From Chryseobacterium sp. (lineage in GTDB: Bacteria; Bacteroidota; Bacteroidia; Flavobacteriales; Weeksellaceae), in contig JAITMC010000018.1 of NCBI GenBank assembly GCA_031277615.1, positions 124,001 to 188,000 of the forward strand: a stretch of DNA of 64,000 nucleotides, in the 5' to 3' direction. A program made the position numbers and the translations under genes. Below the pieces are notes generated by a model. It worked only from the letters and a program-made list of their open reading frames with translations, was not told where the DNA came from and did not search any database. This document shows positions 46,216 to 61,165 of this stretch, in pieces. Numbering within the stretch: the first letter of the stretch is position 1; the number at the start of each line of letters is the position of its first letter.

Positions 46216-46923
46216 ATGCTTTCAGTGTTTTTATTACAACTTGACTGGAAAGAATTATTGATGGGGCATGAAGAATGGTCTTTCATTCTAGAGATTATTC
46301 TGCGTACAATGATCATGTTTCTTACCATTATTATCGGTCTCAGGGTTCTGGGTAAAAGAGGAGTTAAGCAGCTTTCCCTTTTTGAGCTTGTGGTCATTAT
46401 CGGATTAGGATCAGCCGCCGGAGATCCGATGTTCAATAAAGATGTGGGAATTGTTTCCTCTATTATTGTTTTCGTCGTGATTATACTGTTGTACAGCATT
46501 GTTACTTATTTTATAGGGAAAAGTAAAAAATTTGAAAAACTGGTAGAAGGAAAGTCTATCTGTCTGATTCGGGACGGTGAATTTGCCATTGAAAACTTTC
46601 AGAAGGAAAATCTCGGAAGCGATGAATTTTTCGCTGAACTCAGACTGAAAGGAGTTTCCCAGCTGGGTCAGATTGAAACGGCCATTGAAGAAATTTCCGG
46701 TGAGATCAGCGTATTTTTCTATGAGGATTCATTGGTAAAACCAGGACTTCCGATTATGCCTGATTCCCTGGAACACTCTTTAAAGAATATTACCAAAGAA
46801 GGACATTATGCGTGTACTTTTTGTGGTCATACAGCACGAAAGTCTGAAGGGAATGCCGGAAACTGTTCCAAATGTAGAAAAAATGAATGGGTAGAAGCCA
46901 GCTTTAGAAAGAGAGTAACTTGA
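46216..46923 (+). CDS. DUF421 (YetF-like) membrane protein with C-terminal zinc ribbon
   Basis: 235 aa. Three membrane helices (about 20-95: FILEIILRTMIMFLTIIIGL, LFELVVIIGLGSAAG, IIVFVVIILLYSIVTYF), then a soluble DUF421 domain with ICLIRDGEFAIENF and GSDEFFAELRLKGV. The last 40 residues add Cys-x-x-Cys pairs (CTFCGH, CSKCRK), a zinc-ribbon-like end that is not usual in YetF. Role unknown; in Bacillus such proteins affect cell-surface or spore properties. No coupling to neighbours. Confidence 0.85.
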   Translation: MLSVFLLQLDWKELLMGHEEWSFILEIILRTMIMFLTIIIGLRVLGKRGVKQLSLFELVVIIGLGSAAGDPMFNKDVGIVSSIIVFVVIILLYSIVTYFIGKSKKFEKLVEGKSICLIRDGEFAIENFQKENLGSDEFFAELRLKGVSQLGQIETAIEEISGEISVFFYEDSLVKPGLPIMPDSLEHSLKNITKEGHYACTFCGHTARKSEGNAGNCSKCRKNEWVEASFRKRVT

Positions 46924-46975: not shown

Positions 46976-47042
46976 CGTTTTGTAAAAATGTAAAACGAAT
47001 TGTAAATCAATTCAATTTCTTACGCAACAATTATTATTTTTA
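46976..47042 (+). promoter_or_regulatory. LytTR-type direct repeat and -7 box, ahead of the regulator gene
   Basis: CGTTTTGTAAAA (46976-46987) and CGAATTGTAAAT (46996-47007), starts 20 bp apart; -7-like TATTTTTA at 47035-47042, 27 bp after the second box. Implies autoregulation. Confidence 0.6.
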
Positions 47043-47062
47043 CTGTGCCTAAAAACATAAAA

Positions 47063-47803
47063 ATGATAAGCATTGCGATCATAGAAGATGAGCCCGCGGT
47101 ACGTAAAGAAATAAGCTACCTGATCAAACAGGAACCCGATACAGAACTTATCGGATGGAGCGACAGCGTGCAGACCGCCGTAAAACTCATTCAGGAAAAA
47201 CAGCCTGATGTTATCCTGATGGATATCCAGCTCAGGGACGGGACGGCTTTTGATCTTCTTAAAGAATTAAATCCGATTCCTCAAAACATCATATTCATTA
47301 CAGCATACAACCATTTTGCCATCAAAGCTATTAAGTACGGGGCCTTGGATTATCTGCTGAAACCTGTTGATCAGACAGAACTGAGAGAATCGCTGGAACG
47401 TTACCGCAGGAAAAGCGAGAACAATCCGCAGTGGATGCAGCAGCTAATGCTTACCCAGCAGTCGATGGCCGTTTCAGATCTGCCTGAAAGTATTGCGCTT
47501 AATACCGTTCACAGCACCCATATTATTAAAGTTCAGGATATTGTTTATTGTAAAGGAGATGGACCTTATACTTTTTTCTTCCTGAGTAACGGAACAAAAG
47601 AGCTTATTTCCAAACCGCTGAAATATTATGAGGAATTATTACCGGCCCCCCATTTTCTGCGTACCCACCAATCTTATCTTGTCAATCGTCAGTATATTTC
47701 AGGACTGAACAAATCAGAATATATTGTCCTTAAAAATAAAGAGGAAATTCCGATTTCTCTCCGACGTAAAAATGCCATTTTAACCCATCTTTTGAATAGA
47801 TAA
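47063..47803 (+). CDS. LytTR family response regulator
   Basis: 246 aa from the ATG at 47063 (an upstream GTG adds six residues). Receiver domain with IIEDEPAVRKE, phospho-acceptor Asp54 in VILMDIQLRDG, and YLLKPVDQ with the conserved Lys. C-terminal LytTR DNA-binding domain (about 145-245) with IKVQDIVYCKGDGPYT, FLRTHQSYLVNRQYI and ISLRRKNA. LytTR regulators bind direct repeats about two helical turns apart; five such promoters lie in this region, one being its own. The kinase gene begins immediately after its stop codon. Confidence 0.95.
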   Translation: MISIAIIEDEPAVRKEISYLIKQEPDTELIGWSDSVQTAVKLIQEKQPDVILMDIQLRDGTAFDLLKELNPIPQNIIFITAYNHFAIKAIKYGALDYLLKPVDQTELRESLERYRRKSENNPQWMQQLMLTQQSMAVSDLPESIALNTVHSTHIIKVQDIVYCKGDGPYTFFFLSNGTKELISKPLKYYEELLPAPHFLRTHQSYLVNRQYISGLNKSEYIVLKNKEEIPISLRRKNAILTHLLNR

Positions 47804-49717
47804 ATGAAACAAATATTCCGGATTATCTGCTTTGGAACGGCTGCTTTGCTGGCTACAGGATGTAACAATAAGGATTCTGTGACGCAGGATAATGCGCTCT
47901 CCAAAAAGGTCGATCAATTAAAGGCTCTCCCTGTAAGCCCTAAAAATGCAGATTCCCTGATTGCGGTATGGCAAAAACTTGATAAAAATCCAGTAGTGGT
48001 AAAGGACACCATATTGTCTGCTTCAGTAAAATATAATATGGCAAGACTCTATGGAATGACGGGTAAAGATTCTGCCAGTTATTATGTAGAACAAGCTTTG
48101 GAACTTATAGAACCAACTTCCGGTGATCTTAAACTTAAGGCGCTTATATACAATGGAATAGGAAATATCCGAAGTATGGAGGCCAAACAGAAAGAGGCTG
48201 GTTATTATTACAATAAGGCAGCAGCTATTGTTTCCGATACTAATATTGACTTTAATAATGAGGCACGTTCTGCGGTCCTCCTTTCTGCAGCACAAAGCAA
48301 TCTCACTGCTTTTCAGTACAATCTTGCGGAAAAAATGAACCGTGCGGCTCTTCCTTTATCCCAGGCTCTTCCTGAAGGGCATATCAACAAACAAAGGGTG
48401 CTCGTTCAGCTTATATATACGCTCAGCACCTTGAAAAAACCGGCAGACAGTATAAGGCCTTACCTTCGCAAGCTGGAAGACCTCCATTTAAAGAATGCGG
48501 ATAAATATGATATCAGCTATCTGTATGATTCTAAAATGAAATATTTTGATTCTCAGGATCAAAAAGATTCACTGCTTCATTATCAGTTGCTGAAAGCGAA
48601 AGTAGATGAAGGGTCCAATCAGGGTAAGACAGATGCTGTTTATATCAATAACCTTTTTGTTGATTACAGCGATATTGCAACAACCTATACCCGGCTTAAA
48701 CAGGCGGAAAAAGCTCAGGTTTTCATTAACAAGACTGAAAAGCTGAAGGCGGCCAATTCAAAGCTGATCTACAATTATAATGAAGCATTATTTCTGAACA
48801 GCCGTGCTGCATTATATCATTTACAGGGAAAGCCCAATGAAGCCATTGAACTGATGCAGCAGGCAGCCCAGATTCAGAAGGAAGTATACCAGGCCGAGAA
48901 TACGCAGGCTGTTGCCGAGATGAATGCCATTTATCAGCTTCAGACCAAAGACCGCTCCATCCGTACTCTGAATGAAAATATCAAGATCAGCCAACTGGAG
49001 CTGGAACAGAATCACCTGTGGCTGATTATTTCCATCCTCGGATCTGTCCTTTTGATCTTTACCCTGCTGTTTTTATATTACAGCTTCCGCCAGCGTCGTA
49101 CAAGGCAGGAAAAAGAGAAACTCTTACTTCAGCAGCAGCTTCTCCGCACCCAGATGGAGCCGCATTTTATTTTCAATACCTTATCTGCCGTTCAGAGTTT
49201 CGTAAGGCTTGATAAAAAAGAAGATGCGATTAAATATCTTAACCGTTTCAGCCGTCTTCTCCGAAGCAGCCTGGAGCTGAGCCGTGAAAACCTGGTTCCG
49301 CTGAATGAAGAAATTGAAACCCTGGATAACTATCTGTGCCTTCAACAGATGCGTTATGACAATGCTTTCACCTATCATATTACCCAGCCGGCTGAGCAGG
49401 ATCTGGGAGCAGCCTTACTTCCCCCGATGCTGATACAGCCATATGTGGAAAATGCCATCATACATGGGATCAACCTGGATTCTCATACCGGCAATATTGA
49501 GGTTTGCTTTGTACTGGAGGATGATATCCTACAGGTTACCGTTACCGATACCGGCCGAAGTCAGGCTCACCAGGCAGATACTTCCCACCGTTCTTTATCA
49601 GGAATAATCAGCCGGGAAAGAATGCAGCTGCTGGGCAAAAAAGCAAGTGTGAACATTTCAAAAGATGCAAACAGCGGTACCGTAGTAACGCTTCTGATTC
49701 CTATTGTACATCCCTAG
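47804..49717 (+). CDS. Sensor histidine kinase, LytS/YehU type, with N-terminal TPR domain
   Basis: 637 aa. Exported N-terminal part starting with a lipobox-like LLATGCNNK, then about 370 residues of helical TPR-type repeats (e.g. KLKALIYNGIGNIRSMEAKQKEAGYYYNKA). One membrane helix at about 405-428 (LWLIISILGSVLLIFTLLF). Cytosolic His_kinase domain with QMEPHFIFNTLSAVQSF, His454, followed by an HATPase domain with LIQPYVENAIIHGI. It should phosphorylate the adjacent LytTR regulator (the ATG directly follows the regulator's stop). Extracytoplasmic TPR repeats suggest a protein or cell-wall ligand. Confidence 0.93.
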   Translation: MKQIFRIICFGTAALLATGCNNKDSVTQDNALSKKVDQLKALPVSPKNADSLIAVWQKLDKNPVVVKDTILSASVKYNMARLYGMTGKDSASYYVEQALELIEPTSGDLKLKALIYNGIGNIRSMEAKQKEAGYYYNKAAAIVSDTNIDFNNEARSAVLLSAAQSNLTAFQYNLAEKMNRAALPLSQALPEGHINKQRVLVQLIYTLSTLKKPADSIRPYLRKLEDLHLKNADKYDISYLYDSKMKYFDSQDQKDSLLHYQLLKAKVDEGSNQGKTDAVYINNLFVDYSDIATTYTRLKQAEKAQVFINKTEKLKAANSKLIYNYNEALFLNSRAALYHLQGKPNEAIELMQQAAQIQKEVYQAENTQAVAEMNAIYQLQTKDRSIRTLNENIKISQLELEQNHLWLIISILGSVLLIFTLLFLYYSFRQRRTRQEKEKLLLQQQLLRTQMEPHFIFNTLSAVQSFVRLDKKEDAIKYLNRFSRLLRSSLELSRENLVPLNEEIETLDNYLCLQQMRYDNAFTYHITQPAEQDLGAALLPPMLIQPYVENAIIHGINLDSHTGNIEVCFVLEDDILQVTVTDTGRSQAHQADTSHRSLSGIISRERMQLLGKKASVNISKDANSGTVVTLLIPIVHP

Positions 49718-49722
49718 TTCAA

Positions 49723-49791
49723 CGGATTGTAAATAATACAACACGGATTGTAAATAAGATCCGGTCAATCATCAATACTTTTTTACATTTA
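49723..49791 (+). promoter_or_regulatory. LytTR-type direct repeat and -7 box, ahead of the 49852 operon
   Basis: CGGATTGTAAAT at 49723-49734 and again at 49744-49755 (21-bp period), then 28 bp, then TACATTTA (49784-49791) as -7. Confidence 0.72.
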
Positions 49792-49823
49792 CCCCGGAAT
49801 TTTAAATTCCGGGGTAAATGTAA
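49783..49823. repeat. 41-bp near-perfect palindrome over the promoter
   Basis: TTACATTTACCCCGGAATTT, a single T, then its exact complement, AAATTCCGGGGTAAATGTAA. It overlaps the -7 box and transcription start of the 49852 operon. It has no U tract, so it is a poor terminator for the kinase mRNA. Confidence 0.8.
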
Positions 49824-49851
49824 TATGATAAAACACCAATGATCTGTTACC

Positions 49852-51141
49852 ATGAGATTAAAATCTGTCACAAGATATACATTTTTCATTCTCTTCACTA
49901 TAGGAAGCTTTTCTGCAATAGCCCAGGAAACTTCTCAGGCACAGCTGGACAAAGCCAGGGAACTTTATGAAAGCAAACATTACGGAGAAGCTTCCGCTTT
50001 ATGTGAAAAATTGCTGCAGAATGACTATAAAAATACTTATCTGCTCAATCAGTGCGGGTTGAGCTATTTCCAGCAGGGAAATTATGAGAAAGCCAAAGAA
50101 AAATTCCGTCTGGCCACTTTGTACTGTCCGCCGGGAGAGAAAGAAAATATGGCACTTTATTACTCTAACCTTTCGGCAAGCTATTCCCATATCGGCGATA
50201 ATGACAAGGCCTACGAAAATGCGGTAAAAGCTTATCAGCTGGACAACGAAAGACTCTGGAATGCAGCTTCTATGGCTCAGAATGCCGGTAAATACGAAGA
50301 ATGCCTTAAACTCATGAATAAGGCAGGAAAAGACAATCTTCATATTGCTTACTGGTCTTTATACGGAAGATGTTATTACCATACAAAAAGATATCAGGAA
50401 GCCGTAGAAAGCTATAGCTATTTCTTCAGCAAATACGATCCGGAGGATGAGTTTGTCACCCTGAATGCAGAAACCGAAGCCCATTATTTCCTGTATGCTT
50501 CACTGTACACCCTTGCTTCTGAAACGGATGAAAACAAAGCAGATGCAGCCCTTATCCGCATCAAAAAAATGATGGATGAATCAGGTACCAGGATTTCCAG
50601 CGAAAATATGATGAAAGGGTTTACCAATGCCGATAATATTTGCAATAAATATGGTTTTTCCGGGAATATATGCACCAAAATTTTCCGGACATGGATTGAG
50701 CATCCTACCGCTGAAGAAGAACTGAAATTTACCTATTACACTTTAAAAGATTACAGAAAAGCTTTTCAGCAATCCGAACATCTGATGCGCTCAGATAAGG
50801 GCATGGAAATCAAAGAAATGAATTACCTGTCTTCAGTACAGCTTTTCCTTGATGATTATTTTCAGAACAACCGGAAAGCAGATAGGGAAAAACTGAAGTC
50901 CGTAGGAGGTTTGTTTAAACAAATTCTTGATCAGAAAATATCCGGACACCCGGAATCTTACCGGGCGGACGATGATAACGCGGCTCTTCAGACCTTCAGA
51001 ATATTTAATGCCCGTTTTACCAAAAAGGAAGAACAGAAAGAAGCGGCATCACTGCTGATTGTCATCATGGAAAACCTGCCGGAAGGAAGAGATAAAACAG
51101 GCGTTATGGAAATTCTGAAAGCCGGATATATCAATAATTAA
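49852..51141 (+). CDS. Exported TPR-repeat protein
   Basis: 429 aa. Signal peptide (about 1-24, ending FSAIAQ). Several TPR helices: AQLDKARELYESKHYGEASALCEKLL, YLLNQCGLSYFQQGNYEKAKEKF, YYSNLSASYSHIGDNDKAYENAVKAY. Further repeats run to about residue 180, followed by less regular helices to the end. No enzyme motif. Likely periplasmic scaffold or binder; note that its sensor kinase also carries an exported TPR domain. First gene of a three-gene LytTR-controlled unit (12-bp gap to the next). Confidence 0.88.
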   Translation: MRLKSVTRYTFFILFTIGSFSAIAQETSQAQLDKARELYESKHYGEASALCEKLLQNDYKNTYLLNQCGLSYFQQGNYEKAKEKFRLATLYCPPGEKENMALYYSNLSASYSHIGDNDKAYENAVKAYQLDNERLWNAASMAQNAGKYEECLKLMNKAGKDNLHIAYWSLYGRCYYHTKRYQEAVESYSYFFSKYDPEDEFVTLNAETEAHYFLYASLYTLASETDENKADAALIRIKKMMDESGTRISSENMMKGFTNADNICNKYGFSGNICTKIFRTWIEHPTAEEELKFTYYTLKDYRKAFQQSEHLMRSDKGMEIKEMNYLSSVQLFLDDYFQNNRKADREKLKSVGGLFKQILDQKISGHPESYRADDDNAALQTFRIFNARFTKKEEQKEAASLLIVIMENLPEGRDKTGVMEILKAGYINN

Positions 51142-51153
51142 ATTACCACAATA

Positions 51154-52011
51154 ATGGAAAATCAACCCAACCCAACCCCTAATCCCAATAAAAAGAAAAT
51201 ACTGATCATTGCAGGAACAGCAGTTGTATTTTTGGCGGTCGGCGGCTTTGTTTATTTCAGTAAAAATCAACAGCCTTCATCAGTTCCCGGGAAAAATGTT
51301 AAAGACAGTCTGTTAACCGTTAAAAAAGACTCTGTTGCGGTAAAAGATACCCTGAAAAGTGTAGACTATGGTGAAGAAGGATCGCCCTATACTGAATACA
51401 GAGTGATTGCAAGCTCTGTGAACCTTCCTTCCGGGAAATTGAGTTTCGGAGATAAAGTATTTGCTGATGACAGCAAGTCTACCGAAGGCAGAAAGCTTAT
51501 TCTTCTCCAGGACCCTTACAAATATCCAAATACCTCAGGCTACGATGCAGATGCGGCGCTTTTCATAGAAGATTACCGTTTTGATGAGTACAAAAATAAT
51601 TTTTCTCTGCCGCCGTTTTCCTCATTACCTACCGGGGTGAAAAAGATTCTGATGAATGAAAACTACAGCGACGGTAACAAATACGCGATTACGCAGAATA
51701 AAGAAAGAGCTAAATCTTCAGTAGTTTTAGGTGATTTTGATGGTGATGGCATCCGGGATGCAGCCGTACTGATGGATAATAACGAAAAACAGATCAGCAG
51801 GCTTTTAATCATCTGTTCCAATGAGGTGACTAAACAGCCTTATATTGCTTTTGCTGAGAATTATTCGGATAAAATGAAAGTCAGCCTGGATCCGGCCGAT
51901 TATGCTCCGGTTTCCCGAAGTGGTCTTATTGTTACCGGGGAAGATATCGAACTGTCTGTCCTTTACGATCCTGATTCCCAGAAATTCAAAACAACTACCC
52001 AGGGAGAATAA
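51154..52011 (+). CDS. Single-pass membrane protein with FG-GAP-like calcium motif
   Basis: 285 aa. Cytoplasmic Pro/Asn-rich head, a membrane helix (about 15-37: ILIIAGTAVVFLAVGGFVYF), a Lys/Asp/Val linker, then an exported beta-rich domain. One clear VLGDFDGDGIRDAAVLMD segment matches the Asp-rich metal loop of FG-GAP/VCBS repeats. No family name known. Same motif style is seen in the 57208 protein. Middle gene of the unit. Confidence 0.8.
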   Translation: MENQPNPTPNPNKKKILIIAGTAVVFLAVGGFVYFSKNQQPSSVPGKNVKDSLLTVKKDSVAVKDTLKSVDYGEEGSPYTEYRVIASSVNLPSGKLSFGDKVFADDSKSTEGRKLILLQDPYKYPNTSGYDADAALFIEDYRFDEYKNNFSLPPFSSLPTGVKKILMNENYSDGNKYAITQNKERAKSSVVLGDFDGDGIRDAAVLMDNNEKQISRLLIICSNEVTKQPYIAFAENYSDKMKVSLDPADYAPVSRSGLIVTGEDIELSVLYDPDSQKFKTTTQGE

Positions 52012-52029
52012 TCTGCGAAAAGATGTTTT

Positions 52030-52728
52030 ATGGGAAAAGGTTTTAAACATATCACCAACCGTTTTTTCGATTATCTGGGAGCCGTTGTTGTCACGGCTAT
52101 GCTCATCGTGTTCATCTTTGTGGTGAATAATTACCATTATTTTATTTATGCGACGATCATTGCAGCGATTATCTTTATGGTAAGAAAGACATCAAAACAG
52201 GGATGGAAAGAAAAAGGAAAGTACTTCCTGATCCTGACGGGGCTGGTTTATGTTCCTTTACTCCTTCTTTTTTCGGTTTCACCTTTTTTAAGGTTTGCAG
52301 AGTTCCGGTGTACCCATGCCGGTTGGAAAACTGCGGAAGCAGAAGACCTCTCTTACCGGTCAGAATGGGAACCGCGACACAGAAGGTCCAGCGGATATGC
52401 CTATTCAGACATTTCGTACAGCTACCGGGTCGGGACACGCAGCTTTACCAATAAGGAACACAGTGTTGAAAAATTATACTATCCGGTTTGGGAAAGTGAC
52501 CGTAAAATTCTGGAACTGAAAGACTACCTTCTGCAAAGGACTAAGGAGCGAATCAGTAAAGGAAAATTTATCCTTCTGTACAACACTGAAACACCCTCTG
52601 AAAGTAAGTTTTTTATTTCCAGGCAGCTACTTTACCCGCAGGGTTCGGAACTCTATGCCTATATTATTTTTATCAGCATCATCTTTTTTTCAATGATTTT
52701 AAGTGCTGTGCTTTCCATGAGAAAATAA
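52030..52728 (+). CDS. DUF3592-like membrane protein
   Basis: 232 aa. About three membrane segments in the first 90 residues (AVVVTAMLIVFIFVV, HYFIYATIIAAIIFMV, ILTGLVYVPLLLLFSV) and one near the C-terminus (AYIIFISIIFFSMILSAVL). Between them an exposed domain with ISYSYRVGTRSFTNKEHSV and LLYNTETPSESKFFIS, the Y-x-Y-x-x-G-x-x-(Y/F) and Y-N-P-E-x-P-x-x-S-type signature of DUF3592. Role unknown. Confidence 0.75.
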   Translation: MGKGFKHITNRFFDYLGAVVVTAMLIVFIFVVNNYHYFIYATIIAAIIFMVRKTSKQGWKEKGKYFLILTGLVYVPLLLLFSVSPFLRFAEFRCTHAGWKTAEAEDLSYRSEWEPRHRRSSGYAYSDISYSYRVGTRSFTNKEHSVEKLYYPVWESDRKILELKDYLLQRTKERISKGKFILLYNTETPSESKFFISRQLLYPQGSELYAYIIFISIIFFSMILSAVLSMRK

Positions 52729-52793
52729 TTTGTATAACGTATTGTTTACCAGTCAAAACAGAAAGAAAACTCCCTTTTTAATAAAAAATATTG

Positions 52794-52862
52794 CGAATTG
52801 TAAACCACATCCGGCGAATTGTAAACGGATCTTTTACTTCAGGAATTTACTTTCTACCTTTG
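52794..52862 (+). promoter_or_regulatory. LytTR-type direct repeat and -7 box, ahead of the 52909 operon
   Basis: CGAATTGTAAAC at 52794-52805 and 52815-52826 (21-bp period), 28 bp, then TACCTTTG (52855-52862), an exact -7 match. Confidence 0.78.
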
Positions 52863-52908
52863 ATCCAACAGCCAGACCAAGCAAAAGAGAATAAAATGTG
52901 CTGCACAA

Positions 52909-53577
52909 ATGACGAATACAGAATATATAAGCCATTTTATCGGACAGCTTCGCTTAAGAAAGAGAATCTTTATGCTTCTGCTGGTGCTGGCGGTTTTTAT
53001 CATACCTTTTATATTTCTGGTCGTTGCTTATAAAGAAACAAGTGATCTGGGTAAAGATCTGCTGGGGAAAGCAAAATATAATGAAAGGATAGAAGATGCT
53101 GTGAGGTATGCATTAGCCATTATGGGACTTATTGCGGTAATGGTAATTCCGCTGGGAATATGGGTCAACCGGTTTTTAGACAGCTATATCCCGGTTCTGA
53201 AATCTCTGGATGATAATGATATTGTGAAACTCAGGGGATATAATGAAAGCCAGATTTTTCTGAAAAAATATCACATTTCATTTATTTTTCAGAGAGATAT
53301 TCTGCACATTTTCAGATTAGGAAACGTCAGCAGTATTAAAGGAAGCAGCATCGTCAACTATAATCTGGAGAAAATATATGGCCGTGGAAAGGGGCATTAC
53401 CACCTGAGAATAAAGACGAGTGAGAAAGATTATTTTTATGCCATTCATGATAACGACAAACAGGCTTTGATGCTGGAACAGGATCTAGCGGTTATTATGA
53501 ACGCAACTTATAACTATAAAAAGACTGAGATTAATTTTTCCGGGAAAAACTGGACCATTTCCGGTAAAAAGATATAG
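52909..53577 (+). CDS. Two-helix membrane protein with PH-like soluble domain
   Basis: 222 aa. Membrane helices at about 22-42 (MLLLVLAVFIIPFIFLVVAY) and 68-88 (ALAIMGLIAVMVIPLGIWV), then a soluble domain of about 130 residues: LRGYNESQIFLKKYHISFIFQ, VSSIKGSSIVNY and GHYHLRIKTSEKDYF, a bacterial PH-like beta-sandwich pattern. No known name. Shares its plan with the proteins at 53622 and 60052. First gene of a LytTR-controlled set. Confidence 0.75.
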   Translation: MTNTEYISHFIGQLRLRKRIFMLLLVLAVFIIPFIFLVVAYKETSDLGKDLLGKAKYNERIEDAVRYALAIMGLIAVMVIPLGIWVNRFLDSYIPVLKSLDDNDIVKLRGYNESQIFLKKYHISFIFQRDILHIFRLGNVSSIKGSSIVNYNLEKIYGRGKGHYHLRIKTSEKDYFYAIHDNDKQALMLEQDLAVIMNATYNYKKTEINFSGKNWTISGKKI

Positions 53578-53621
53578 AAACGTATTATTAAGGGAAAAAT
53601 AATAACAGATCAGGGAGACGA

Positions 53622-54452
53622 ATGATGAGAAAAAAAAGAGCCTGTATAAGTATTAACAGGCAAAATTTCGGACACACAAACACCATGGTTTCTCTGATCT
53701 CCGTTTCTATGTTATCCATGGTCGGGATCGCCTCTTTTTTCATCGACTGGAAAAGCGGGCTTTGTGCTGCCGCCGGAATTGCAGCCGTTTACTTCTTTCA
53801 AAAATTATCCGGATACAGATTTCTTTTTCCGATCATCGGTGTCATGCTGGTATCGGTTTATTTTTTAACCCAATTACTGAACATAGAATTGGTGTTGGTC
53901 ATTGCATCTTTGCTGTTCCAGCCTTTTATCTTTTTTGTAAAGCCATGCTATGAAGAATATAAAAATCCTTCTGATTTTGAAATCTTTTATTGGGATAAGA
54001 GAAAAATCAAATGCCTGGTGACTCTGGAAGATTCCGATTATAAAGGATATATGCTTAATCCCAGGAGTTATGTGAAAGAGTTTCCTTCAGCACGCATCAA
54101 AACTGTTACTTTTACCGGAAATACGATGACCATTGCGGTTGATAATCTGCTGATCCGCCCCAAAGAGCTTTCTTCGGATGACGTTCTTCTGATCCGGGGA
54201 TATATGGATGAAGACTTTCCGGATCTTTTACAGAATACAGAAGCAGTCCGGGAGAATATAAGGATAGAAAACAGATTTTACTGGCATAAGCTGATCATTT
54301 TTTCGCCGGTATTTATTGGAGGGATGATTATTTATTTTTTTGCAGATAACGGGAGAAATAAACCTTTAACATATACCTGTTTATTGCTGATGATTATTTC
54401 ATGTTTTCTGATCTATTATATTTTGAGAAAAAAAATAAAAAATAACAATTAA
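53622..54452 (+). CDS. Multi-helix membrane protein with PH-like loop domain
   Basis: 276 aa. About four N-terminal membrane segments (VSLISVSMLSMVGIASFFI, GLCAAAGIAAVYFF, IIGVMLVSVYFLTQLL, LVLVIASLLFQPFIFFV), a soluble domain about 110-215 (FYWDKRKIKCLVTLEDSDYKG ... DDVLLIRGYMDEDFPDLL), and two C-terminal helices (LIIFSPVFIGGMIIYFFA and TCLLLMIISCFLIYYI). The LIRGY phrase is also in the preceding protein (KLRGY), so the soluble domains may be related. Function unknown. Confidence 0.75.
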   Translation: MMRKKRACISINRQNFGHTNTMVSLISVSMLSMVGIASFFIDWKSGLCAAAGIAAVYFFQKLSGYRFLFPIIGVMLVSVYFLTQLLNIELVLVIASLLFQPFIFFVKPCYEEYKNPSDFEIFYWDKRKIKCLVTLEDSDYKGYMLNPRSYVKEFPSARIKTVTFTGNTMTIAVDNLLIRPKELSSDDVLLIRGYMDEDFPDLLQNTEAVRENIRIENRFYWHKLIIFSPVFIGGMIIYFFADNGRNKPLTYTCLLLMIISCFLIYYILRKKIKNNN

Positions 54453-54467
54453 TATTTCTACATTTCA

Positions 54468-54812
54468 ATGAAAATTGTTAAACCTTTTCTGATAAGACTT
54501 CTCATTACCGCAATCCCTCTGATTGTGATCTGGTTCTGGGCAGATATGGCATTTAAAGCCAACCGGCAAAAAGAACATCCGACAGATGTAGGGTTGGGAA
54601 TGGCTGTAGTTCTGTTTTTTGTATTGGCTGCTTTACTCTTTGGTTTTATTACTGATTGTATTGCCAGATTGATTAAAAAAGATTACAAAACCGCTCTTAT
54701 TGACCTTCCTTTTCTTATTTTTTTTCTACTGCCTATTCTATACCTCAACTGCTTATGGTCCGGAGGGGGTGATTTCTGCGAATGGCTTACCCACATTACT
54801 GATACGCTATGA
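54468..54812 (+). CDS. Small membrane protein, three-helix type
   Basis: 114 aa. Three hydrophobic segments (LLITAIPLIVIWFWADMAF, LGMAVVLFFVLAALLFGFI and LPFLIFFLLPILYL). The final loop, GGGDFCEWLTH, is outside the helices. No recognised family. ATGA overlap with the next gene (54809-54812), so the two are coupled. Confidence 0.72.
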   Translation: MKIVKPFLIRLLITAIPLIVIWFWADMAFKANRQKEHPTDVGLGMAVVLFFVLAALLFGFITDCIARLIKKDYKTALIDLPFLIFFLLPILYLNCLWSGGGDFCEWLTHITDTL

Positions 54813-55135
54813 TTTTAATCCTTATTTTTTCAAGCTGCTTCCTGATCGGAATGTTGCTTTACCTTAAACGTTCGCCTAAAACGATATTGATCGTTGTGGC
54901 GGTATTACTGACTGCTTTGATCTGTTTTTTCTGTTGGGCAGCTTCTGAAGATGAAAACTACGTGATGAATGTTCCTGCTTTTTTTAAAGGGAAAAATAAT
55001 GATACTCTGGCGGTATCGGGCATCAGCATAAATACTGTTACCGAAAGAGTCATTCAGCGTACAACCAGCTCGGAAAATGACGGAATAGAAACTTATTACC
55101 AGATAGAAAAAGATACCTGGCAGATGTCATTGTAA
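54809..55135 (+). CDS. Small membrane protein, two-helix type
   Basis: 108 aa. Two membrane segments (LILIFSSCFLIGMLLYL and ILIVVAVLLTALICFFCWAA) and an exposed tail of about 60 residues with GISINTVTERVIQRTTSSEND. Unknown. Last gene of its unit. Confidence 0.7.
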   Translation: MILILIFSSCFLIGMLLYLKRSPKTILIVVAVLLTALICFFCWAASEDENYVMNVPAFFKGKNNDTLAVSGISINTVTERVIQRTTSSENDGIETYYQIEKDTWQMSL

Positions 55136-55177
55136 TCCGAAACAAACATATTTCTTTAACGGAATAAAGATCTACAA

Positions 55178-55246
55178 CGAATTATAAGTTTAAACTTACG
55201 GATTGTAAATGAATACGGCCCGGCTTATTCATACTGCTTATATTTG
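55178..55246 (+). promoter_or_regulatory. LytTR-type direct repeat and -7 box, ahead of the 55269 operon
   Basis: CGAATTATAAGT (55178-55189, degenerate) and CGGATTGTAAAT (55199-55210), 21-bp period, 28 bp, then TATATTTG (55239-55246). Confidence 0.72.
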
Positions 55247-55268
55247 AACCTCAGACATTCATGGCAAA

Positions 55269-55865
55269 ATGAGAATAATATTAAAAATACTATGCTTTAT
55301 GGCTTTTTGGGGAATTTTTTCGTGTAAGAAAGACAACAGTATCATTGAGAATAAAAAGATCAGCATCAAGAAAGAAACAGGATATCATGATGTGAGCGAT
55401 CCCGCTGAAAATGATATCATTTATCTGGTGAAATTCAGCGACTATAATAATAAAGCCACCAAAGGAGGACTGCAAAGCATTCTTTCCATAGACAACATCC
55501 AGCAGAGCCTGCTACAGCCCAATGCTGAATATATCCTTGAAAATTCTCCCGAAGAAACACTCGGTGAACGGATTCGCAGCATACAGTCCGACTGTGAAAA
55601 GCCGGGCATCGGATGGTCCGATTTTAAAATAATCAATAATGTAAAGCCTACCGTTTTTAAAGGATATAAAGCCGCTGAAGCAGAATATGAAGTGGTTGAA
55701 TATGTAGATTTTCTGGACAAAACCGTTAAAAAGAGAATTAAAAGATATGCCGTTTTTGTCGGTAAAGACTTATGGAATATTGTACTGGCACCTTCCAGCA
55801 TTCAGGCCTATGATACTGATATGAAGGAAATGAATACCATGATCGAAACCATGAAAATAAAATAA
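55269..55865 (+). CDS. Uncharacterised lipoprotein
   Basis: 198 aa. Signal with lipobox FWGIFSCKKD, a Lys/Glu linker, then an alpha/beta exported domain (DIIYLVKFSDYNNKATKGGLQ, KAAEAEYEVVEYVDFLDKTV, KRYAVFVGKDLWNIVLAPS). No recognised family. First gene of a LytTR-controlled unit. Confidence 0.78.
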   Translation: MRIILKILCFMAFWGIFSCKKDNSIIENKKISIKKETGYHDVSDPAENDIIYLVKFSDYNNKATKGGLQSILSIDNIQQSLLQPNAEYILENSPEETLGERIRSIQSDCEKPGIGWSDFKIINNVKPTVFKGYKAAEAEYEVVEYVDFLDKTVKKRIKRYAVFVGKDLWNIVLAPSSIQAYDTDMKEMNTMIETMKIK

Positions 55866-55899
55866 TCATAATCTGTAATTGATTTGTATCTTTCAGTAA

Positions 55900-56334
55900 A
55901 TGAAAAAAATAATACTGTTGATCACAATTGTTGGCGGAATATGGTTTTCCCCAGCCCAGACCCTGACTTCACCCGGGATCTGGTATGAGGTGATTCCTGC
56001 AAAAATCAATACAGACAGCCTGCTGACCAAAAAAGGATTTATCCTGAAATATTCAGGTCCGAAAAAGCAAGGTGGCAATCTGGCCTGCTATTTTCATAAA
56101 AAAGCCGATGAATGGCTATTTATCCATACCAATGAAAAGCAGCAGACCACTCAGGTCTCTTATCTTTTACCTTCACTGAAAAAATTCCTGAAAAATTGGG
56201 TTGATAAAAAACAGCTCCTGCCCGGCGAAGAAGTCGTCGATATGGGAAAAACATTCCAGGAAAACCGGACGTATTACCATTTGATTTATAAGTTTGAAAG
56301 ACCTGAACTCCCTATATCCCGGCAAAGCCCATGA
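55900..56334 (+). CDS. Uncharacterised exported protein
   Basis: 144 aa. Signal peptide (MKKIILLITIVGGIWFSPAQ). The mature part is mixed alpha/beta (GIWYEVIPAKINTDSLLTKK, GNLACYFHKKADEWLFIH). ATGA overlap with the next gene. No known domain. Confidence 0.78.
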   Translation: MKKIILLITIVGGIWFSPAQTLTSPGIWYEVIPAKINTDSLLTKKGFILKYSGPKKQGGNLACYFHKKADEWLFIHTNEKQQTTQVSYLLPSLKKFLKNWVDKKQLLPGEEVVDMGKTFQENRTYYHLIYKFERPELPISRQSP

Positions 56335-57131
56335 AAATATTCAGAATCCTGCTTATTTCAATGATTCTTGCCTCCGTATTGCTGTGCGCCGGCTCTTATT
56401 TCTATCCGGTATCCTGCCAAAACAGCTGTAATGAAGGTAATATGTACAGGTACAAAATGGGAATTTATGAAATGAAAACAGGACTGACAGGAAATAAAGA
56501 ATATCATAAAACAGGAGGACTCGCTATGTTTTTGGGGATAAAACCCATTATATGTCCTGGGGAAGCAGAAAAGCAGCACTATGCTTCAGTAGTGAAATCT
56601 ATCGATAGTGCCAATAAGGCTGAAGGCTGGAAGCTTTATAAAAACGGATTATGGATCAGCAAAAGCGGAGATATTGCCATAAAAGAAATAATGGCAGTAG
56701 GGCCGGAAGGCATGGAGCACGCTGAACATTACATCAGCCGGATGGGGTTTGATGAAGGTAAACCTTTAAACAGCATCATCGATACCGCTACTTTTCAGAA
56801 GCTCAATGAAAGCTTTTATAAAGATCGGAAACATATTTACCGCTATTATGGAATGGCCTATGGAGGAAGTTTTTCCATTTTCTCTGAAGCAGATCCTTTA
56901 ACCTTTGAAGTATTGAGTGAATGCTATGCAAAAGATAGAAACCATATTTATGAATCAAGGGAAGGAATCCTGAACAATGTAGATTATCAGACATTCAAAA
57001 CCAAAAGTACTGTAACAGGCTGCTTTGCCAAAGACCGTCACGGTTTTCTGCAATGGGGAGACCGGATTTCTGAAGACCATATGAAAGATGAATATGTACA
57101 GAAAGCCATCAGAGAGCTTAATCAGCCTTAA
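56331..57131 (+). CDS. DKNYY-type repeat protein
   Basis: 266 aa. An N-terminal hydrophobic signal/anchor (LLISMILASVLLCAGSYFY). C-terminal half with two or three DKNYY-family repeats: SFYKDRKHIYRYYGM, ADPLTFEVLSECYAKDRNHIYE and GCFAKDRHGFLQWG. DKNYY domains (YAKD-x-x-HVY) occur in exported or membrane proteins of unclear role. Coupled to the preceding gene by ATGA. Confidence 0.82.
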   Translation: MKIFRILLISMILASVLLCAGSYFYPVSCQNSCNEGNMYRYKMGIYEMKTGLTGNKEYHKTGGLAMFLGIKPIICPGEAEKQHYASVVKSIDSANKAEGWKLYKNGLWISKSGDIAIKEIMAVGPEGMEHAEHYISRMGFDEGKPLNSIIDTATFQKLNESFYKDRKHIYRYYGMAYGGSFSIFSEADPLTFEVLSECYAKDRNHIYESREGILNNVDYQTFKTKSTVTGCFAKDRHGFLQWGDRISEDHMKDEYVQKAIRELNQP

Positions 57132-57207
57132 ATATGTATTCAGCCGGACTATCAATGAGTCCGCAGGCATAAGACTTGTTCCGTATATTTAATCCTATAA
57201 TTTTCTG

Positions 57208-58098
57208 ATGATGAGAAGAACACTCCTTTCAGTTTTAGTTCTGGCATTCGGTTCTATGAGTGCACAAACAGTATATACAGGATCCATCGGGGATTATCCT
57301 GTGGAAATGATCATCGATTCCTTTTCCAAGACCGCGGACGGACTCTATGTCTATACCAATTTTGATGAACCTATTGAGCTCAGTGAAGGTACTGTAAACA
57401 ACGGTACGCTTATTTTTCATGAAAAAGAAACAACAGGTAAGAAAGCAACCAAAGCCATTTTAACCTTTAACGGTTTTACGGAAAATGCAGATGCGCTTTC
57501 CGGAATATGGAAAAATGTGAAAACCGGAAATGAATTAAACATCAGTTTAACCAAAAAATATTCCATTGAAAACGGAGAAAACATCCAGTGGAAAGACCGG
57601 GAACTCCTGCAGTCTGTTTCTATCGGTAACAGCTATTTTAAAGCAGTCGTTTCCAAGGAAAACGGAAGTTATTATCCTACGGTGACTTCAATAAAGATCT
57701 TTGAAAAGAAAACGGACCGCTTATTACAGGAACTTGAAGTCAGTTGCCAGCTTTTAGGACTGAACAATATCACGGTTAATGATTATAATTTTGACGGAAT
57801 CGATGATTTTTCAGTTTTTGAATCCAGTTATGCCGGTCCCAATACTTCCAGCATTTACTTTCTTTTTGACCCGAAAACCCGGAAGTATTCTGAAAGCAGT
57901 TTCAGTGGAATTTCTCTGGAATTTGATCCCACCAAAAAAAGAGTCTACGAAAGGAATCAGTGCTGTGCCGGTACCGTCGTTACAACTGTAGAATATAAAG
58001 TCGTCAGCAATAGCCTGGTGCAGCTTGCCGAACATTGCTATCGCTGGAACGAAAAGAAACAGAAATTACAGGAAAAGCCCATGAAAGAATGTCAGTAA
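57208..58098 (+). CDS. Exported beta-rich protein (XAC2610-like end)
   Basis: 296 aa. Signal peptide (ends GSMSAQ), a beta-rich N-terminal domain (IGDYPVEMIIDSFSKTADGLY, NVKTGNELNISLTKK), and a C-terminal domain with DYNFDGIDDFSVFESSYAG followed by YERNQCCAGTVVTTVEYKVV, the Asp-rich loop plus vicinal-Cys arrangement of XAC2610-type proteins. No assigned function. Third or fourth gene of its group. Confidence 0.78.
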   Translation: MMRRTLLSVLVLAFGSMSAQTVYTGSIGDYPVEMIIDSFSKTADGLYVYTNFDEPIELSEGTVNNGTLIFHEKETTGKKATKAILTFNGFTENADALSGIWKNVKTGNELNISLTKKYSIENGENIQWKDRELLQSVSIGNSYFKAVVSKENGSYYPTVTSIKIFEKKTDRLLQELEVSCQLLGLNNITVNDYNFDGIDDFSVFESSYAGPNTSSIYFLFDPKTRKYSESSFSGISLEFDPTKKRVYERNQCCAGTVVTTVEYKVVSNSLVQLAEHCYRWNEKKQKLQEKPMKECQ

Positions 58099-58130
58099 TC
58101 ATTAAATAAAATTTTCATTAACAAAAACCA

Positions 58131-59003
58131 ATGAAAGAAAATAAATTACCCATGAAAAAAGCCATGCTCAATCTCTTTATATTAACATCCGGCGTTGTGT
58201 TTTCCCAGCAGTCAACCGAAAATATAATGATCCATACGGGAAATACAGATAACGCTTTTTTTAATAAAGTAAAAATAACGGATAAGGAAGAGACCAAAAG
58301 CATTCAGCTTAAAGACGGTCATTATACATTTCAGAATCAGGATCAGAAAGCAGATATCTCGATAAAAAATACTTTGATCAGTGGACATGTTACTGCCCTA
58401 AGAGACAAGGAAAAAACCGATTTCACCATCGTGAATTCTTATATTACGGCTTATGACATTTTTACTGATGATATTATTATAAATGCATACAGGGATGCCC
58501 AAAAAGCTTATTTCAAAAAATATGATTCCAATAAAGTTCTGAAAGCCGATGGCTGGATGTCTCTCGATAAAAACAAACATTACGGAAAAGGAGTGTCCAA
58601 AAACTATTTTGAAAACGGAAAAGTAAGCCGCATTTCTGATGAAGTTACCGAAACCTATACCGATTTCTATCCGGACGGAAACAAAAAACAGAAAATAGGA
58701 GGCAACGTTTTCGAAAGCTATAATGAAAACGGAACTTTAAACAATAAACAATATACGAAGAATAATATCCGGTACAACGATTATTACCAGAACGGAAAAC
58801 TATATACCCATGCCTATCAGAATAAAGAAGGCAACGAAGTCACTGAGTATTATAAAAACGGAATCCTGGATAAAAAAGAAACCGTGAAAATCATCAATGG
58901 AGAAAAACGTCTTCTTACTCACAATAAAGCAGGAAAGCTTATCAGCAATATTCCTTATTCCCAAACGGCAGCAGGAGAGATAAAATATGCCCCGGAAAGG
59001 TAA
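58131..59003 (+). CDS. MORN/YwqK-type exported repeat protein
   Basis: 290 aa. Start either at the ATG at 58131 or, more likely, at 58152, where MKKAMLNLFILTSGVVFSQQ forms a signal peptide. The second half has MORN-like units: YFENGKVSRISDEVTE, YPDGNKKQKIGGN, YNENGTLNNKQYT, YYQNGKLYTHAY and YYKNGILDKKE. Such YwqK proteins are often annotated as antitoxin-like immunity components, but a structural envelope role is equally possible. Last gene of its unit. Confidence 0.85.
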   Translation: MKENKLPMKKAMLNLFILTSGVVFSQQSTENIMIHTGNTDNAFFNKVKITDKEETKSIQLKDGHYTFQNQDQKADISIKNTLISGHVTALRDKEKTDFTIVNSYITAYDIFTDDIIINAYRDAQKAYFKKYDSNKVLKADGWMSLDKNKHYGKGVSKNYFENGKVSRISDEVTETYTDFYPDGNKKQKIGGNVFESYNENGTLNNKQYTKNNIRYNDYYQNGKLYTHAYQNKEGNEVTEYYKNGILDKKETVKIINGEKRLLTHNKAGKLISNIPYSQTAAGEIKYAPER

Positions 59004-59065
59004 AGAATATCACTTTATAAGGAATTCGGCAGACCTCTTATACAGCATCACACAGCTGTTTTTTG

Positions 59066-59133
59066 CGAATTGTAAACGGGATAAGCGGATTGTAAATGAG
59101 ACTACAAAGGAAGGAAAATATTGTATACTTTTG
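59066..59133 (+). promoter_or_regulatory. LytTR-type direct repeat and -7 box, ahead of the 59276 gene
   Basis: CGAATTGTAAAC (59066-59077) and CGGATTGTAAAT (59086-59097), 20-bp period, 28 bp, then TACTTTTG (59126-59133). About 140 nt of leader follows. Confidence 0.75.
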
Positions 59134-59275: not shown

Positions 59276-59584
59276 ATGAAGGCAATAAAGTTTTTCCTGA
59301 ACCTTCTGGTGGTATTTTGGACCCTGTTACTGGCCGTTGATTTTCTGCTGGTACTTCCCGAATACTGCGCCTGCAGAAATGCATCAGAAAACGGAAACGC
59401 CAAAACCATCTGGGGGTATACGATAGACTGTATCGGGGACAGTGCAGAATTTTCCCTGATCTTCTTTCAGATGATCGGCTGCTGGCTGATTGGAATTATG
59501 ACCATGATCATTATACTGCATATCATTTATAACAGGAAGAAAAAACATCAGAATCCTAAGAATAATAACCATGCAATCTTTTAA
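59276..59584 (+). CDS. Small two-helix membrane protein
   Basis: 102 aa. Two membrane helices (FFLNLLVVFWTLLLAVDFLL and MIGCWLIGIMTMIIILHIIY) enclosing an exported loop of about 45 residues with three Cys (CAC, TIDC), and a basic tail KKKHQ. No known family. LytTR-controlled. A ghost ORF overlaps its 3' end. Confidence 0.75.
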   Translation: MKAIKFFLNLLVVFWTLLLAVDFLLVLPEYCACRNASENGNAKTIWGYTIDCIGDSAEFSLIFFQMIGCWLIGIMTMIIILHIIYNRKKKHQNPKNNNHAIF

Positions 59585-59615
59585 CCAAGAAAACAATAAT
59601 AAGGCGGTACTGTAG
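59571..59615 (+). pseudogene. Decayed 5' copy of the 60052-type gene (fragment 1)
   Basis: ATAACC-ATG followed by 14 codons, MQSFNQENNNKAVL, then a stop. It aligns with the start of the 60052 protein (MKTLSFKQHNKKAALSF) and has the same AATAACC leader. Overlaps the 3' end of the 59276 gene and the terminator. May be coincidental. Confidence 0.4.
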
Positions 59616-59645
59616 CTTGCAGACTGTAATCTTCGTACCGCTTTT
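59604..59645 (+). terminator. Terminator of the 59276 gene
   Basis: GCGGTAC / GTACCGC stem with a long loop, followed by TTTT. Confidence 0.7.
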
Positions 59646-60051: not shown

Positions 60052-60567
60052 ATGAAAACTCTAAGTTTTAAACAACACAACAAAAAAGCAGCACTGTCTT
60101 TTACAGTCGTTTATCTGGCTGTAATTTTTTTGCTGCTTTACTTCCTTTTTCAGATTACAGATATTGCATCTAAGGCAGGAAATACCATTATTTGGGGAAT
60201 TGCCGGCTGCGTCATCGGAGTTGGGATCATGCTGTCTTATCTCATGCTGTTACAGCTTTTTCATCAGGACCTTCAGGTAGAGATCAGCCGTTATCAAATG
60301 GTGGTTTATACAAAAGGGAAGGAGGAAAAGCGCATCAGGCTTGAAGACATCGGTAGAATGGAGCTGAATACCAATACCCTGAACTGTCTGGATATTTATG
60401 ACCGGCAGAATACACTGCTTATTTCTTTTCATCCGGCCAATGAAGTCCGTACCACAAGAAATATTATTGAAGAATTATCCGGTCATGTTTCATTTAAACT
60501 GAAAAAAGACAATAAGGTATATGCAAGAACAAGAATTGAAACATTTACCTATACAAGACGAATATAA
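60052..60567 (+). CDS. Two-helix membrane protein with PH-like domain
   Basis: 171 aa. Two membrane helices (LSFTVVYLAVIFLLLYFLF and WGIAGCVIGVGIMLSYLML), then a PH-like soluble part: VEISRYQMVVYTKGKEEKR, IRLEDIGRMELNT and ISFHPANEVRTTRNIIEEL. Same plan as the 52909 protein. Preceded by AATAACC and two decayed copies of its 5' end. 22 bp before the last gene of the locus. Confidence 0.76.
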   Translation: MKTLSFKQHNKKAALSFTVVYLAVIFLLLYFLFQITDIASKAGNTIIWGIAGCVIGVGIMLSYLMLLQLFHQDLQVEISRYQMVVYTKGKEEKRIRLEDIGRMELNTNTLNCLDIYDRQNTLLISFHPANEVRTTRNIIEELSGHVSFKLKKDNKVYARTRIETFTYTRRI

Positions 60568-60589
60568 TGTAATGAAGATGAAGTAACCC

Positions 60590-61165
60590 ATGGCTAAAAT
60601 GATTCTGAAAATATATCTGGTATTGTCCCTGCTTCTGGCAGCAGATATTGCCGCTTATGTTTTCTATAAGATAAGCCTGAGAGGTTATTATGCGGATATT
60701 ATCCTTTTCTGGCTCTGGATTTCCGGAAGTATTGCGATAGTGATCGCGTTCTGGAAAAAGCTATGGGCAAAACTATTTTTAGGCACCATGATCTCCGGAT
60801 TGATCCTGAGTATGCTGCCGATGGGATTGCCATTCTATTTCCTGGTCTTTGCAACAACACCTGCAGGATTATGGATGAGTAAAGACCTCAGTAAGGATTA
60901 CCGCGCACAGATTGTATCCTATAGTGTTATGGTACCGCCATGGCTTCAGGTGATACAAAAAACAGGTCCTTTTGAAAAAGAGATCCTTCAATGCAGAGAT
61001 TCACAGCTGCAGAATGATCAAATGGAGGTAAGAATCCGGAATTCAAAGGACATTATTTTTGAAAAAGAAACAGACAGCACAATTACGCTGACCCTGTTTT
61101 ACGGAGGTCCCAATACAATACTAACCTTCGACAAAGCAACAGGAAAAATACTGGATCAGCAATGA
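60590..61165 (+). CDS. Membrane protein, four-helix type
   Basis: 191 aa. About four membrane segments (LKIYLVLSLLLAADIAAYVF, ILFWLWISGSIAIVIAFW, LFLGTMISGLILSMLPM, YFLVFATTPAGLWM), then an exported or cytosolic tail with beta pattern (QNDQMEVRIRNSKDIIFEKE, STITLTLFYGGPNTILTF). ATG at 60590 or 60599. No recognised family. Probably co-transcribed with the 60052 gene. Confidence 0.74.
   Translation: MAKMILKIYLVLSLLLAADIAAYVFYKISLRGYYADIILFWLWISGSIAIVIAFWKKLWAKLFLGTMISGLILSMLPMGLPFYFLVFATTPAGLWMSKDLSKDYRAQIVSYSVMVPPWLQVIQKTGPFEKEILQCRDSQLQNDQMEVRIRNSKDIIFEKETDSTITLTLFYGGPNTILTFDKATGKILDQQ

Follow-up and report, generated by a model that had tools for sequence, protein, structure and literature searches.

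In a 64,000-nucleotide stretch of the Chryseobacterium sp. assembly GCA_031277615.1 (contig JAITMC010000018.1, positions 124,001 to 188,000; hereafter the window), five intergenic promoters carry paired direct repeats close to CGRATTGTAAAY ahead of a −7 element. One of them precedes a LytTR-type response regulator gene (47063; genes are named by their start coordinates) and its histidine kinase gene (47804), and the others precede four groups of membrane and exported proteins, most of them unstudied, which we call cargo. We conclude that these elements very probably form a horizontally shared LytTR two-component regulon with a constant promoter and regulator and an exchangeable exported cargo, binding and activation being predicted from sequence. 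A first-pass annotation of the window had proposed that the two-component system governs this neighboring set of genes; the proposal is supported by the co-occurrence of boxes and kinase, by a pair frequency near background elsewhere, and by a site position resembling that of AgrA.

Each of the ten boxes, and each of the five −7 elements, lies at the coordinate first given for it (Table 1). Eight boxes are exact copies of CGRATTGTAAAY, while the first boxes at 46976 and 55178 have three and two mismatches; the start-to-start periods of the five pairs are 20, 21, 21, 21, and 20 bp, and the distances from the first letter of box 2 to that of the −7 element are 39, 40, 40, 40, and 40 nt. Single boxes with at most two mismatches were not above chance in the window (25 seen against 26.9 expected), and the signal is therefore carried by the pairing and by the clustering of exact boxes, 8 of the 11 in the genome (4.82 Mb in 46 contigs) falling within this 12-kb stretch. 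Searching the genome for pairs with at most three mismatches at periods of 20 and 21 bp, we found two and three, respectively; these are the window's own five, and reversed-pattern controls gave none. A weight-matrix scan combining the two boxes and the −7 element, with matrices built from 49 pairs including those of the window, returned exactly the five sites (scores 38 to 51), in line with the first-pass annotation, which saw no other such pair in the window. On both strands of 1.5 Mb of simulated sequence, the same scan gave two matches of at least 14, the higher scoring 18.

The geometry of these promoters was retained across relatives. We picked 85 distinct pairs on the boxes alone, a set that overlaps the 49 pairs used for training the box matrices, and recorded −7 boxes with at least five of the six key letters of TAnnTTTG, accepting G or A at the last place. 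Such a box was found 27 or 28 nt past box 2 in 77 of the 85 pairs (16 of 19 in Chryseobacterium loci and 61 of 66 in others), compared with at most 9 of 85 at any of the remaining offsets between 0 and 45. With periods of 19 to 22 bp permitted, 77 pairs had a period of 21 and 8 of 20, with none at 19 or 22, although the count is biased by loci L074–L103 and most of L161–L180 having been fetched for period-21 matches; among the 19 pairs of the Chryseobacterium loci, which had been retrieved as surroundings of the kinase, 17 had a period of 21 and two of 20. Within the larger regions, 66 of 68 pairs fell outside open reading frames (ORFs) of at least 150 amino acids, and 59 of 68 were followed within 450 nt by an ORF start on the same strand.

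A −33 element consists of a TTG some 17 to 23 nt ahead of the −7 box. In an alignment of the 77 pairs anchored at the −7 box, the columns from there back to box 2 all stayed at or below 0.42 bits and no conserved −33 element was seen, and none of the five window promoters has a TTG at that place. The −7 element, TAnnTTT(G/A), is of the Bacteroidota sigma-A promoter type, whose −33 component is not conserved here. With the −7 box placed at −12 to −5 (PMC9723704), the box pair is centered at about −57. In Staphylococcus aureus, the repeats bound by the LytTR response regulator AgrA at P2 and P3 are described as centered near −60 (PMC4227749). This arrangement also bears on the sign of regulation, which the computation does not give: the regulator might repress or brake these promoters instead of activating them, and LytTR repressors exist, PlnD being described as one (PMC2714321). 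We consider repression improbable, because the boxes keep a constant distance to the −7 element, lie entirely on its upstream side, and are accompanied by no conserved −33 element, because a repressor would not need their fixed helical phase, and because the layout resembles that of AgrA at P2 and P3.

The association of the boxes with the two-component system held in the genus, in the window's family, and in a second family, the Sphingobacteriaceae. The genus was represented by 173 genomes; five of them had the kinase (E ≤ 1e-60), and the identical five had an exact pair (the window genome, G000, and G039, G053, G059, and G167), no exact pair found in the genus lying farther than about 12 kb from the kinase. 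In the window's family (320 genomes), six genomes had the kinase and five had the pair, all five in common. The Sphingobacteriaceae (301 genomes) contained the regulator (E ≤ 1e-60) in 44 genomes and a period-21 pair with at most three mismatches in 68. After leaving out six genomes selected for having pairs (G320, G321, G322, G323, G324, and G327), the pair was present in 27 of the 39 genomes that have the regulator (85 pairs) and in 35 of the remaining 256 (39 pairs; Fisher test, P = 1.6e-12); with the six included, the counts were 32 of 44 and 36 of 257 (P = 6.9e-15). Pairs outnumbered the reversed control by 127 to 7 in the 44 regulator-bearing genomes and by 40 to 28 in the other 257, indicating that the rate is near background where the regulator is missing. 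Regulator identity to that of the window was 79 to 82% in six of the ten Sphingobacteriaceae genomes brought up by the species-wide scan described next and 66, 62, 53, and 38% in the rest, and for G039 and G059, of the window's own genus, it was 63 and 67%. We also scanned 84,980 species with the pattern CGAATTGTAAAN{8,11}CGRATTGTAAA, which demands A as the third letter of box 1 and is not exhaustive. Of the 22 stretches found, 11 were in Chryseobacterium indologenes, Pedobacter, or Sphingobacterium, every one at a period of 20 or 21, and the other 11 included all the cases of period 19 or 22 and several tandem arrays.

The regulon had been described as local, and in Chryseobacterium it is; in Sphingobacterium, by contrast, the pairs are scattered across the genome, most of them far from the regulator gene. 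Among the Chryseobacterium genomes, G059 has eight pairs, seven exact, including one ahead of the regulator, and one with a single mismatch, and its downstream genes are quite different from those of the window. In G039 (L041, 13600–15100), a perfect pair follows the kinase with neither a good −7 box nor evident cargo, which may have been lost; downstream are a short ORF and, judged by eye, two stretches resembling tRNA genes. The largest regulon seen was that of G589 in the Sphingobacteriaceae (L161–L166), with 27 period-21 pairs of at most three mismatches and ten weight-matrix sites within 26 kb of one stretch.

Several observations weigh against a regulon of this kind. In G237, which belongs to another genus of the window's family, the kinase is present with a regulator 69% identical to that of the window, and no convincing pair lies nearby: the 30 kb around the kinase contain two chance-like pairs with six mismatches and no −7 box and no weight-matrix site, and the box may have changed there. 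Twelve of the 44 regulator-bearing Sphingobacteriaceae genomes have no period-21 pair with at most three mismatches (4 of 26 with regulator identity of at least 59% and 8 of 18 below that), and in these the box or its period may differ. Eight of the 85 pairs have no good −7 box. A TTG starting 20 to 26 nt before the −7 start was present in 19 of 77 promoters compared with 10.7 expected from shuffled spacers, a modest excess with its maximum at 24 nt (8 of 77), and it indicates that the boxes do not always substitute for a −33 element; the first-pass claim that they replace it fits the window and most relatives, and a minority may keep a −33-like TTG. Near-perfect boxes also occur where no ortholog of the regulator was found, as in G470 and G321, and the window genome has 18 LytTR matches besides the regulator (19 in all, some fragmentary), so that another regulator could in principle bind the boxes.

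These last two observations, together with the distance between most Sphingobacterium pairs and the regulator gene, would fit the pairs being sites of a different DNA-binding protein, either another LytTR regulator or a global factor, with the two-component genes a mere target or neighbor. We judge this quite unlikely: such a protein would not account for pairs and kinase coinciding in exactly the same five genomes of the genus, for the enrichment of pairs among regulator-bearing genomes of an independent family, or for pairs without the regulator being nearly as rare as the reversed control.

Self-activation of the regulator was the weakest part of the first-pass proposal. A pair does stand ahead of the regulator in the window genome, G053, G167, G059, G326, and G546 and ahead of the second regulator of G328. 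Box 1 of this promoter differs from CGRATTGTAAAY at three places in the window and at four in each sister species. Of 10 regulator loci examined in the Sphingobacteriaceae, 8 have no pair ahead of the regulator or a degenerate one, which also counts against the regulon reading. Self-activation is likely here but not general.

The regulator combines receiver and LytTR domains, and the kinase gene follows it directly. The kinase has a hydrophobic N terminus with a lipobox-like Cys20, a TPR region, a second transmembrane helix at about residues 403 to 429, and a phospho-acceptor PHFIFN box at 453. Related kinases were found in 13 of 15 regions searched, G517 and G320 being the two without, and all 13 kept this layout, their start codons having been picked by us to give a length near 637. 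In the Sphingobacteriaceae, a lipobox-bearing kinase-like ORF follows the regulator in 9 of 10 loci examined; in the tenth (L112), no ATG was present at the positions checked. The regulator domains, the kinase partner in the operon, and repeats about two helical turns apart place the system with the LytTR two-component regulons of the AgrA, ComE, and PlnC kind, with binding predicted. Membership in the LytTR Regulatory System (LRS) was considered as well and is ruled out by the receiver domain and the kinase. Upstream, a YetF-like gene (46216–46923) lies between bioA and the regulator; it is absent from that place in the sister species G053 and G167.

The cargo linked the two families further. 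Relatives of the window's cargo were found behind Sphingobacteriaceae pairs (E ≤ 3e-6) for 8 of 15 cargo ORFs and for none of the 47 other window ORFs examined. The eight are 49852, 51154, 52909, 55269, 56331, 58131, 59276, and 60590; two of the matches are short (56331, 67 amino acids; 59276, 82 amino acids), that of 59276 may reflect hydrophobicity alone, and 60590 was counted despite its unsure link to promoter 5. The relative of 52909 (25% identity) lies behind a box pair in Sphingobacterium (L087), and the order of 49852 and 51154 is kept in G484.

The regulator itself has several origins within Chryseobacterium. In the regulator tree, that of G039 clustered with those of Sphingobacterium G325 and of G581, a relative of G325 (96/89), and an approximately unbiased test rejected a single Chryseobacterium regulator clade (P = 0.0004) on a tree that omitted paralogs and the long-branched G517 row; with these included, bootstrap support was not fully settled. 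The direction of transfer is one that we infer.

Turnover was visible between sister species. The island is collinear between the window and G167 at 71 to 79% identity, and the segments missing or unalignable in G167 are 49733–52042, 55000–55898 (promoter 4 and gene 55269), 58103–59010, and about 60098–61133. Promoter 4 and gene 55269 are jointly absent at the matching place in both G167 and G053, and at the equivalent of promoter 2 the pair is gone in G167 and kept in G053; promoters and genes thus come and go between sister species. Copying of the repeats as a mobile family with no regulatory role is suggested by the much alike 9-nt spacers of the G059 pairs, consistent with recent copying, and by the tandem arrays among the matches of the species-wide scan (L052, L060, and L063), but it is most implausible given the intergenic placement of the pairs ahead of ORF starts, the constant distance to the −7 box, and spacers that in other genomes vary freely while the boxes are kept.

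For the LytTR regulon that we favor, the following mechanism can be proposed. The lipoprotein-like TPR kinase would sense something in the envelope and phosphorylate the regulator, a dimer of which would bind the two direct repeats on one face of the DNA, at the 20- to 21-bp period. Placing the −7 box at −12 to −5 would put box 1 at about −73 to −62 and box 2 at about −52 to −41, and the bound regulator may recruit the housekeeping Bacteroidota RNA polymerase to promoters with the −7 element and mostly no −33 element. The output would be a block of proteins, most of them membrane-bound, lipid-anchored, or exported. Horizontal movement between Chryseobacterium and the Sphingobacteriaceae would have involved the regulator, the kinase, the promoter, and a set of cargo families, with single cargo genes, some bringing their own copy of the promoter, gained and lost along the way. 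The signal, the phosphorelay, the binding, and the activation are the predicted parts of this scheme.

Table 1. Promoter elements and genes of the regulon in the window
Feature	Position	Strand	Remarks
Box pair 1, promoter of regulator-kinase operon	46976..47007	+	Period 20; box 1 CGTTTTGTAAAA, box 2 CGAATTGTAAAT
−7 element of promoter 1	47035..47042	+	27 nt beyond box 2
Response regulator, 246 aa, receiver and LytTR domains	47063..47803	+	Pfam Response_reg 2.9e-20, LytTR 2.5e-17
Histidine kinase, 637 aa	47804..49717	+	Pfam His_kinase 5.1e-21, TPR_12
Box pair 2	49723..49755	+	Period 21, two exact boxes
−7 element of promoter 2	49784..49791	+	28 nt beyond box 2; inside left arm of strong inverted repeat
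TPR protein, N-terminal hydrophobic signal-like segment	49852..51141	+	Relative 38% over 407 aa behind box pair in G484
Membrane-anchored protein, DFDGDGIRD motif	51154..52011	+	Relative 49% over 253 aa, next behind same G484 pair
Membrane protein, no Pfam family	52030..52728	+	
Box pair 3	52794..52826	+	Period 21, two exact boxes
−7 element of promoter 3	52855..52862	+	28 nt beyond box 2
Four-gene group 52909, 53622, 54468, 54809, predicted membrane proteins	52909..55135	+	
Box pair 4	55178..55210	+	Period 21; 2 mismatches in box 1
−7 element of promoter 4	55239..55246	+	28 nt beyond box 2
Lipoprotein-like protein	55269..55865	+	Relative 37% in box-pair cluster of G589
Exported protein, no Pfam family	55900..56334	+	
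DKNYY-family protein	56331..57131	+	Relatives follow box pairs in G327 and G589
XAC2610-related exported protein	57208..58098	+	NCBIfam NF047539, 60.6 bits, cut-off 35
MORN-variant-like exported protein (below Pfam cut-off)	58131..59003	+	Relative 44% over 285 aa behind pair in Pedobacter G320
Box pair 5	59066..59097	+	Period 20, two exact boxes
−7 element of promoter 5	59126..59133	+	28 nt beyond box 2
Small membrane protein, first gene past promoter 5	59276..59584	+	
Two membrane proteins 60052, 60590	60052..61165	+	60590 relatives behind pairs in G589, G517, and G327

At promoter 2, the −7 box forms the start of a perfect inverted repeat with an 18-bp stem (49784–49822; RNA fold −27.3 kcal/mol, z −7.2), which means that the promoter overlaps a possible terminator of the kinase gene or that the transcript starts inside the hairpin; other, differing inverted repeats were seen by eye at this spot in the sister species. 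Past promoter 5, an apparently noncoding stretch of about 450 nt (59600–60050) with complementary segments noticed by eye separates 59276 from 60052. Across this 467-nt gap, it is unsure whether 60052 and 60590 share promoter 5, and they may have a separate promoter.

Most genes behind promoters 2 to 5 have no Pfam family, the exceptions being the TPR protein 49852 and the DKNYY protein 56331; matches below the curated cut-off were obtained for 52909, 54809, 58131, 59276, and 60052. For a broader view we collected 183 proteins behind pairs and reduced them to 170 cargo proteins by removing the regulators and kinases together with every row from G053 or G167, these being near-copies of the rows of the window genome. 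By our own simple hydropathy rule, which is not SignalP, membrane or export features were present in 141 of the 170 cargo proteins compared with 13 of 42 other ORFs of the window, the former being at least 70 amino acids long and the latter at least 100 and perhaps including spurious ORFs. A loose pattern resembling the motif D-x-[DN]-x-D-G-x-x-D occurred in 13 of the 170 cargo proteins and in none of the 42 control ORFs. Of the 170, 167 could be used as reference sequences, 146 were at least 90 amino acids long and from genomes other than the window's, and 145 were aligned. Named families among the 145 were few and mixed: zinc ribbon in five, WG, DKNYY, and TonB_C in three each, ankyrin and SMI1_KNR4 in two each, and single cases of peptidases, a VanX-type dipeptidase, VanW, and an HlyD protein, as counted among the commonest 25 of 60 and of 52 families.

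The nature of the cargo allows a tentative idea about its role, which we hold as possible though doubtful. The regulon might be a portable, inducible envelope-defense system, in which the kinase senses an attack on the envelope and the regulator induces local, fast-changing exported protectors, such as a lysozyme inhibitor of the XAC2610 type, newcomers joining by insertion next to, or together with, a copy of the 12-bp box-pair promoter, which would serve as their entry ticket to the regulon. The idea comes from the XAC2610 and SMI1_KNR4 domains, the fast turnover, the export features, and the likeness to defense clusters controlled by Gac/Rsm. It sits less well with the flanking genes, mostly housekeeping-like, and with most of the cargo having no name. 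No toxin family was present among the 25 listed of 142 families in 103 flanking proteins. Next to the G059 cargo cluster lies a convergent block on the minus strand (L046, 9615–16964) with an 840-amino-acid M23 peptidase protein and small lipoproteins; the M23 protein might be a secreted effector and the small lipoproteins its immunity genes.

Two of the systems behind this idea can be compared directly. XAC2610 (X-Tfi) is reported as an immunity lipoprotein against a lysozyme-like effector (PMC10933484); protein 57208 bears the XAC2610_fam domain of this lysozyme-inhibitor family and may be inhibitory, but no effector gene was seen beside it among the listed ORFs of the window. The Gac/Rsm pathway of Pseudomonas aeruginosa is described as controlling the antagonism-resistance clusters arc1-3, acting posttranscriptionally through small RNAs (PMC8926400). 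There, as perhaps here, a two-component system induces several independent clusters of genes without a previously known function, but for the present cargo a role in defense against other bacteria is hinted at by a few domain names only.

Among LytTR systems, a close parallel is with AgrA at P2 and P3, where, as described (PMC4227749), a LytTR response regulator paired with a kinase binds as a dimer to two direct repeats upstream of the promoter, as predicted here, the proximal repeats being centered near −60 against about −57 in our case (PMC4227749, PMC9723704). The present system differs in its kinase, which is of the PF06580 kind and combines a lipobox with TPR repeats, in its polymerase element, a Bacteroidota −7 box with no conserved −33 element, in that no pheromone gene was seen, and in being a regulon common to two families with changing cargo. 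HdrRM and BrsRM of Streptococcus mutans are reported to use 9-bp direct repeats with 12 bp between them, a 21-bp period, near the promoter and with positive autoregulation (PMC6193735). The period and the position close upstream of the promoter are shared, whereas those systems pair a LytTR regulator with a membrane inhibitor instead of a receiver domain and histidine kinase, and the box sequence differs (PMC6193735). In Flavobacterium johnsoniae, mutations in a LytTR regulator are mentioned, with an effect given as unknown (PMC10197871). The titles and abstracts searched describe no LytTR regulon or box like this one for Chryseobacterium, Sphingobacterium, or Pedobacter; most subscription papers fell outside the search, so this does not imply that none has been published.

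LytTR regulons of the Bacteroidota seem hardly described, and the one predicted here is defined by a box, a period, a −7 distance, a regulator, a kinase, and a cargo by which any genome can be screened for it. The regulon suggests how a phylum with an unusual core promoter could build promoters that depend on an activator and have hardly any −33 element or none. Since many unnamed exported families are tied to one circuit, identifying the signal of one promoter would open the way to all of them, and the transfer with changing cargo, if true, would make the system a model of gene recruitment into a regulon.

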